A stretch of 64,000 nucleotides of DNA. Source: Martelella mediterranea DSM 17316. Lineage in GTDB: Bacteria; Pseudomonadota; Alphaproteobacteria; Rhizobiales; Rhizobiaceae. This document shows, piece by piece, positions 60,628 through 60,807 of this stretch (within the stretch, counting starts at the first letter, position 1; each line of letters begins with the position of its first letter). The translations under genes were made by a program, and so were the position numbers. The DNA lies in NCBI RefSeq assembly GCF_002043005.1, contig NZ_CP020330.1, positions 2,312,001 through 2,376,000 of the forward strand. The letters are read 5' to 3'. The notes under the pieces were generated by a model. That model saw only the letters and a program-made list of their open reading frames with translations, did not search any database and was not told where the DNA came from.

Positions 60628-60639
60628 TGTAACTTCGAA

Positions 60640-60807
60640 TCCGCTGCTTGTGGTATAGAGCAGGTTGCGGTGGCGGACGGGAGACCGGTCACCCTGAGGG
60701 ACACCAAGCCCGTGAGTGAGCAAGGGTCCTCGTCCGCCGTTCCATCGAACCCGAACAGTCGCTTGGGCCGCTCGAAGCGAAGCCCGCTTAAGCAAGGATG
60801 GGATCGG
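60640..60807 (+). ncRNA. Candidate bridge RNA of the IS110 element
   Basis: Two structured loops fit the bridge-RNA plan. Target loop: stem GGCGGACG/CGTCCGCC (60672-60679 with 60731-60738, extended inward) enclosing TCACCCT (60689-60695), identical to the left target ending in core CT, and AGTGAG (60715-60720), the reverse complement of CTCACT of the right target. Donor loop: ACAGTCGCTTG (60755-60765) matches the IS right end plus the first two bases of the left end, with GCAAG (60792-60796) pairing to CTTGT (one G-U); inner hairpin GGGCCGCT/AGCG..GCCC and outer CCATC/GATGG. The exact 5' and 3' ends are not determined. Confidence 0.75.

Follow-up and report, generated by a model that had tools for sequence, protein, structure and literature searches.

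What does the stretch ahead of the recombinase gene of an IS110-family insertion sequence do, and does it do the same in the integrated and in the excised form of the element? The question is raised by one such element of Martelella mediterranea DSM 17316, which lies in the window analyzed here, that is, the whole stretch of 64,000 nucleotides at positions 2,312,001 to 2,376,000 of contig NZ_CP020330.1. An initial annotation, made from the letters alone, had proposed that the left end of the element encodes a bridge RNA with two guide-bearing loops, in the layout known for IS621. We consider it almost certain that the element is an IS110-group insertion sequence with an IS621-type bridge RNA, carrying guides for its target and for its own ends.

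The element, its recombinase and its insertion site

The element occupies 60628..61763 (+) and is 1,136 bp long when the right-hand core CT is counted as its end; the left copy of the core lies at 60626-60627. These ends were defined by comparison with uninterrupted repeat copies and with an orthologous empty site (L189). On the left stands the target TTCACC with the core CT (60620..60627, +), within an interspersed repeat, and on the right CACTC (61764..61768, +). An uninterrupted copy of the target repeat is found at 21501..21645 (+), with TTCACC at 21590-21595, CT at 21596-21597 and CACTGC at 21598-21603. The genome holds at least 41 matches to this repeat, which is a lower bound because 40 of 116 candidates were scored.

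At the empty site, which belongs to one of 12 congeners with the upstream gene, the repeat is intact and reads ATCACC-CT-CACT, with neither an insertion sequence nor a duplication; the other 11, read by eye, have no such repeat in the approximately 420 nt after that gene. The insertion was therefore precise, at the core dinucleotide CT and without target duplication, as is characteristic of the IS110 group. The same group is indicated by the long left end, with 180 nt upstream of the recombinase gene (tnp) and only 17 nt after its stop codon, although the label 'non-coding' is in question for the circle form. The IS1111 group, with its guide RNA at the right end, was considered and rejected, the guide being upstream of tnp and only 17 nt following the stop. 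Phages yielded no relative at 1e-50.

The recombinase, of 312 aa (tnp, 60808..61746, +), has the two domains of the group, namely RuvC-like DEDD (PF01548, 92 bits) and Transposase_20 (PF02371, 61.9 bits), and scores 222.7 bits against NF033542, 'IS110 family RNA-guided transposase', for which the cut-off is 140. Its structurally solved relatives, matched through their protein chains, are IS621 (phmmer E 1.2e-38) and ISCro4. Residues D9, E54, D96, D99 and S234 are invariant in five aligned sequences (four lineages of the genome), and by homology only they may be assigned a catalytic role.

Fold and guides of the left end

The left end (60628..60807, +; 180 nt) is a putative bridge RNA and, at the same time, 60 stop-free codons in the frame of tnp. 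Single-sequence folding gives a 5' stem-loop (60641..60670, +), a target-loop stem and a donor-loop stem (z -2.2; 5 of 200 shuffles were as good). The target-loop stem pairs 60671..60681 (+) with 60729..60739 (+); the initial annotation had placed a stem of 8 or more bp here, with arms GGCGGACG (60672-60679) and CGTCCGCC (60731-60738), and it actually has 11 bp. The donor loop has an outer helix, in which CCC (60750..60752, +) pairs with GGG (60800-60802), and an inner helix, in which GGGC (60765..60768, +) pairs with GCCC (60782-60785).

This fold was compared across 51 elements picked for distinct left ends, a second group that mostly but not wholly overlaps the guide set described below. 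Here 92.0% of the cells of the 31-pair structure are paired, against 37-50% with partners slid, and both partners change in 18 of the 31 pairs (mean of 9.8 in shuffles). In the target-loop stem this holds for every one of the 11 pairs, with one such change or more in each, and minus its outermost pair (10 pairs) this stem holds 50 G-U cells and 0 A-C cells; helices 2-4 have 97 and 3, respectively. This one-sided tolerance of G-U suggests that selection acts on a strand that is RNA of the same sense as tnp. The 5' stem-loop (helix 1) is weaker, with 76% of cells paired, 44 G-U, 12 A-C and 86 other mismatches. The donor-loop helices are paired in nearly all rows and hardly vary (helix 5, two of three pairs invariant; helix 6, two of four invariant and 0 double-sided changes), and therefore neither support nor oppose the fold, covariation being unable to show there; RNAalifold alone favoured other partners for the CCC and GGG runs, with too little variation to choose.

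A covariance model constructed from 27 left ends matched 19 of 31 other IS110 loci, distant relatives and fragments that had no part in the model, at E <=0.01 and 23 of 31 at E <=1; the weakest matches (E 0.02 to 1) are unconvincing alone, and 0 of 48 loci fetched for repeat or empty sites matched. The left end of the window scores 152.7 bits, by construction, because its sequence belongs to the model. Rfam, searched at gathering scores, gave no match to the left end. Absence of a conserved two-loop fold had been named in advance as an outcome that would speak against the bridge RNA; the fold is conserved across homologues, and its target stem covaries.

Within the first loop, the left target guide TCACCCT (60689..60695, +) equals the left target plus core, and the right target guide (60714..60720, +) is the reverse complement of the core plus CACTC. 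The annotation had given the latter as AGTGAG, at 60715-60720; position and complementarity held, and the length grows to the 7 nt of GAGTGAG because the occupied site reads CACTC. In the second loop, the left donor guide ACAGTCGCTTG (60755..60765, +) equals the junction of right end, core and left end, exactly the 11-base match that had been described. A 5-base complement to the other side had also been claimed; such a complement is present, and is better read as TTA-AG-CAAG (60788..60796, +), pairing with CTTGTAA over a 2-nt bulge. The positions given for the left end (whose limits coincide with those first annotated), the repeat target, both target guides, the stem arms and the donor 11-mer were all correct.

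Per 100,000 order-1 random left ends, the target pair came up 13 times and the donor 11-mer 4 times. These matches were picked after the fact, so shuffles among homologues are the stronger test. For this purpose, 118 loci of >=44% identity were reduced to 90 with the TGTAA end, then to 83 by excluding L132, L138, L139 and L142 (spurious or divergent ends) and L078, L095 and L096 (contig edge), then to 55 distinct target loops and finally to 51 elements with both flanks; duplicate fetches of six own-genome loci were left out. Matches between right guide and right flank number 236 of 255 bases (shuffled mean 114.5, max 160), and those between left guide and left flank 239 of 306 (shuffled mean 169.4, max 196), with 0 of 20,000 shuffles as high in either case. 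The right guide was read in one register only and is matched at 5/5 bases in 39 of the 51 elements and at >=4/5 in 48; for the left guide the highest score among three registers was taken (65:12, 66:33, 67:6), and likewise in the shuffles.

Shuffles ignore relatedness, and thinned tests with one element per guide k-mer were intended to address kinship. With one element per right-guide 5-mer (n=19) the matches are 84/95 vs 37.0 (0 of 50,000; 82 to 87 in three random picks), and with one per left-guide 6-mer (n=36) they are 172/216 vs 119.9 (0 of 50,000). In the covariation map the strongest cells form the two expected diagonals, on one of which TCACCCT lies; values of up to z 6.6 away from the diagonals mean that some of the signal reflects lineage structure. 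Poor matches also occur, for the right guide in L086 (0/5), L112 (2/5) and L072 (3/5), and for the left guide in L028, L080, L082 and L145 (3/6) and in L086 and L131 (2/6), and the own target is best or tied for only 33 of the 51 elements. Covariation of target guides with targets, as seen here, is a feature of the IS110 group.

Unchanged loops at different targets were the other outcome that had been named against a guide function. Copies with the same loop at different loci are 92% identical over the 9 guide-facing nt and 33% identical at distal positions (59 locus pairs), so that they keep the bases that face the guides; elements with different guides have 45% identity at guide-facing positions (1,128 pairs). 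Taken with the conserved fold, this guide-flank covariation bears out the two-loop layout of IS621 type that had been proposed. On the donor side, guide and ends match in the element studied here, and guide and end change jointly in group C (ACAGTTG in both) and in L138 (ACGGTTG in both); one distant element, L143, has a donor-guide mismatch, with guide and end not changed together. The 51-element set had been preselected by donor motif.

Several variations were also observed. Measured from the loop ends, the best fit of the left guide shifts among three registers (12, 33 and 6 of the 51; for example, L001, L007, L067 and L097). In one lineage (L032, L153, L154, L160) the core is CC, and CC is likewise spelled out by the guides (CCCGG for the right target, ATACAGG for the right donor). 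The two cores of an element are unlike each other in 8 of the 75 cases with both flanks (L064, L081, L082, L090, L093, L094, L116, L146); the left core is TT in 9/83 and AT in 1/83, and the right core is CT in 75/75. If the target core was TT, the left junction would carry the target core and the right one the donor core, as expected for a top-strand cut 3' of the core.

The genome itself contains four IS110 lineages, namely A (the window element, 6 copies), B (63% aa relative, 2 copies), C (36%, 5 copies) and D (34%, 10 copies), along with 4 fragment matches. Five of the six A copies occupy the repeat, where the site reads TTCACC-CT-CACT or nearly so. Open YCACCCTCACT sites number 38, against 0 for the reversed control; 37 of them are listed repeat copies, and the remaining one adjoins a B insertion. 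The guide-matching T at -5 is present in 4/5 occupied vs 8/38 open sites (p 0.017, small numbers). The sixth copy, L004, is off the repeat, and six related uninterrupted sequences all have one extra G just before the core CT. If its ancestor was like these relatives, 3/5 left bases and the core would have been matched, and the occupied copy would have lost the G; its right guide matches the occupied copy at 5/5 and the relatives at 3 to 5 of 5.

Lineage B has the scaffold and donor (GACAGTCG-CT-TGTAACTT) in common with A and a different target loop, and inserts at the matching position of the same repeat, CGACAT-CT-CTCCC; one repeat copy carries both A and B. In group C the guide matches are 8/8 and 7/7 in 5/5 copies. 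Group D, whose core is read as AT, uses the same kind of palindromic repeat, and its target loops match 7 or 8 of 8 bases of the left flank (read by eye) and 5 or 6 of 6 of the right. The insertion points of lineages C (L009-L013) and D (L014-L023) within one palindromic repeat almost coincide, and the two lineages are oriented oppositely. Within D, the left-guide alleles CCGAGTAT and CCGAGCAT (L014, L019, L022, L023 compared with L015-L018, L020, L021) stand at different repeat subtypes, GGAT in 4/4 and GCAT in 5/6, yet T does not pair with the G site.

For learning targeting rules, these guides are a useful natural series, well resolved, in which a single scaffold carries 19 right-guide 5-mers and sister elements are directed to separate sites within one repeat. 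How they would be used can be drawn from IS621, on which the steps of circle formation, RNA expression, recombinase binding and recombination are modeled here. The element would be excised as a circle, and the joining of its right and left ends would rebuild a promoter that transcribes the left end into the bridge RNA. The recombinase would bind this RNA, whose first loop would pair with both strands of the genomic target TTCACC-CT-CACTC in the interspersed repeat and whose second loop would pair with the junction of the right and left ends. Strand exchange by the enzyme would then take place at the CT core, leaving no target duplication.

A reading frame across the predicted circle junction

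In the circle, a -35-like TTGACC (61743..61748, +), which contains the tnp stop TGA, and TAACTT at 60630-60635 form a possible junction promoter with 17-nt spacing. TTGA lies exactly 15 nt before the left end in 51/51 elements; the -10 box TAACTT is weak, and a sigma-70 promoter scan of the integrated form found none. The right end also holds what looks like a translation start, with a Shine-Dalgarno-like GGGA (61712..61715, +) 9 nt before an alternative ATG (61725-61727). From this ATG, 13 codons run to the end of the element (61725..61763, +) and continue at 60628 in the circle. The resulting frame leads from inside the 3' end of tnp across the junction and through the bridge RNA into tnp, for 385 aa or 1,158 nt, and overlaps its own end because the circle has only 1,136 bp.

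This arrangement recurs. Once the ends are joined, the left end shares the frame of tnp, and 84/86 left ends (near-identical copies included) are free of stops in it; the real failures, L030 and L113, are apparently the same contig, whereas in eight elements that merely miss the search pattern the frame stays open over 368-370 aa. In 80/82 the length of the circle equals 2 modulo 3, and the alignment gaps of 51 left ends all have lengths divisible by three. Of the codons in the variable 5' part, 0/492 are stops vs 22/492 and 24/540 in the other sense frames, counted in 48 of 51 rows (L030, L129 and L133 left out, L030 having a real stop); after thinning to 23 sequences the counts are 0/234 vs 9/234 and 14/257 (p 1e-4). 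A start codon in this frame is present in 51/51 elements, at position -33 or -39 relative to the left end (ATG 46, GTG 4, TTG 1; no CTG).

The start codon overlaps the C-terminal Trp codon of tnp. The base before TGG is A in 45/50, and A makes up 10% of third bases of tnp codons; ATG is kept where the residue Pro is replaced by Ser, Thr or Gln, and CCA is used at five other conserved prolines in 0/46, 6/25, 5/40, 10/39 and 1/39. A Shine-Dalgarno-like 4-mer precedes the start in 49/50 vs 5/87 for other ATG/GTG in frame, the motif set and control having been chosen after the fact, and Arg is encoded by AGG/AGA in 32/58 at this region vs 125/1,457 elsewhere. The tests of the start-codon base and of the ribosome site scored 50 of the 51 elements, and their p-values ignore relatedness.

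Nine further plasmid elements, including L220 and L223, which were both already in the earlier frame reading, have ATG/GTG at -33 in frame in 7/8 scorable cases and an open frame in 7/8. The exceptions are L225, without a start and with an odd right end, and L227, with a TGA just before tnp; L230, lacking the right-end motif, was unscored. Outside the clade (11 elements), L140 also has a fused frame and seven have no through frame; the frame stops 4 nt before tnp in the related L221 and L224, L221 having no ATG or GTG there, and in group C it ends in ATGA over the tnp start.

Since end joining would place a ribosome site and a start, both concealed in another frame within the 3' end of tnp, in frame with the left end and tnp, a transcript past the junction would encode an extended transposase; because the junction promoter is downstream of the circle ATG, a transcript round the circle, or a tandem copy, would be needed. 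The frame shows no amino-acid constraint (dN/dS 0.79 vs 1.06 and 0.82 in the other frames), and the signal from its codon-position entropy is weak, with the opposite direction in the donor half; what is selected thus seems to be initiation and an open path rather than the peptide. We give an even chance to the proposal that the bridge RNA of this IS110 clade doubles as coding sequence, and does so only once the element is an excised circle: the predicted 73-residue extension of the transposase would include translated target guides, and ribosomes crossing the RNA would unfold it, which would act as a switch, specific to the circle, that selects either guide RNA or extended transposase. If translated, guide RNA and messenger would share one sequence, tied to the excised state.

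Could the left end instead be nothing more than a coding N-terminal extension of the transposase, the guide matches being a by-product? The stop-free left ends and the gaps in multiples of three fit such an extension; against it, coding has no means of producing loop bases equal or complementary to foreign flanking DNA, compensatory stem changes or the 50 G-U to 0 A-C cells of the target stem, and the dN/dS values above do not favor it either. We regard it as very improbable; a coding extension can be compatible with the bridge RNA in addition to, not instead of, it. That the hairpin acts as a DNA cruciform or a protein-binding site, not as RNA, is in our estimate extremely improbable: the target arms are indeed inverted repeats in DNA as well, yet G-U is tolerated in the target stem on one strand only, and the element is homologous to IS621, whose RNA is described as having been shown to act.

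For the circle frame itself, a more serious competitor, which we hold to be unlikely though far from negligible, is that it is a side effect, with CCATGG and the preceding purine-rich stretch conserved as a DNA or RNA motif and the bridge-RNA motifs happening to be stop-free. Invariant RNA motifs such as TGTAA do account for some of the excess of stops in the other frames; the lack of amino-acid-level conservation, the missing through frame in 7 of the 11 elements checked outside the clade, and the choice of Shine-Dalgarno-like 4-mers and control set after the start codon had been seen all point the same way. On the other hand, the variable 5' part stays free of stops after thinning, and ATG is retained when the residue before Trp changes. 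In addition, GTG and TTG occur and CTG does not among the 51, and the start lies at either -33 or -39, both in frame.

Related RNAs and elements

The left end may also have a counterpart in a known small RNA. The Rfam family RF02234 (sX15, a Xanthomonadaceae sRNA) aligns full length to the antisense of 60661-60808 (-) at 24.3 bits (E 0.17) and to the antisense of group C at 27.4 bits (E 0.55), both well below the cut-off of 55. Matches to sX15 occur in 5/398 genomes (13 loci), with one genome over the cut-off (L207, 120 bits). At all six loci with tnp in view (L207, L209, L210, L211, L213, L215; four different elements), sX15 lies directly upstream of an IS110 tnp on the opposite strand, L210 having a second tnp further away; the other seven all stand at contig ends in a single genome, where no tnp can be seen. 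From this position sX15 looks like the antisense of an IS110 bridge RNA, which would join a known sRNA family to the bridge-RNA system. In the open searches, the published literature on sX15/RF02234 amounted to one relevant mention, a table entry. A likeness can be drawn to Asr9, described as an antisense RNA of ISPpu9.

Another IS110-family frame that needs a junction with DNA outside the element for its completion is the hed gene of IS900. There the target supplies the start, whereas in the present case the start would be supplied by the right end of the element itself, once the circle has closed. The nearest IS-named element among the plasmid matches listed is ISMex17 (annotation name; 62% aa identity), which has the same left end, circle start and through frame and differs in its target loop.

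Repeat targeting and natural redirection are already known in IS110 elements. Insertion into repeated palindromic DNA was reported for ISRm19 (4/4 copies) and ISPpu9 (7/7 copies) in REP sequences (Tobes and Pareja 2006, PMC1525189); guides had yet to be described at that time. The seekRNA of ISEc21, of IS110 type, resembles the present case, as described, in its upstream non-coding region and in a bottom-strand match before a top-strand match; that report gives one natural redirection, of the relative ISMch6, against the 19 right-guide 5-mers among 51 elements here (Siddiquee 2024, PMC11187229).

The closest functional model is IS621, for which a left-end bridge RNA is reported to have been shown to act (Durrant 2024, PMC11208160; Hiraizumi 2024, PMC11208158). 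According to these reports, the likeness covers the putative left-end RNA with a 5' stem-loop and target and donor loops, the CT core, the strand scheme of left and right target guides (LTG/RTG) and donor guides (LDG/RDG), the 9-to-7 bulged RDG, the layout of the possible junction promoter (-35 box in the right end, -10 box in the left end), repeat targets, and the recombinase domains. The sequence is distant and the guides are others. The guide layout itself is therefore already known; the circle-spanning frame, unmentioned in the main text of PMC11208160 and in the titles and abstracts of the open literature searched, is what we have not found reported and may be new here. By the features tested, the element belongs to the IS110 group with an IS621-type bridge RNA, and it differs from IS621 as described in those reports by a stop-free frame that runs through the bridge RNA and is joined to an in-frame start in the right end.
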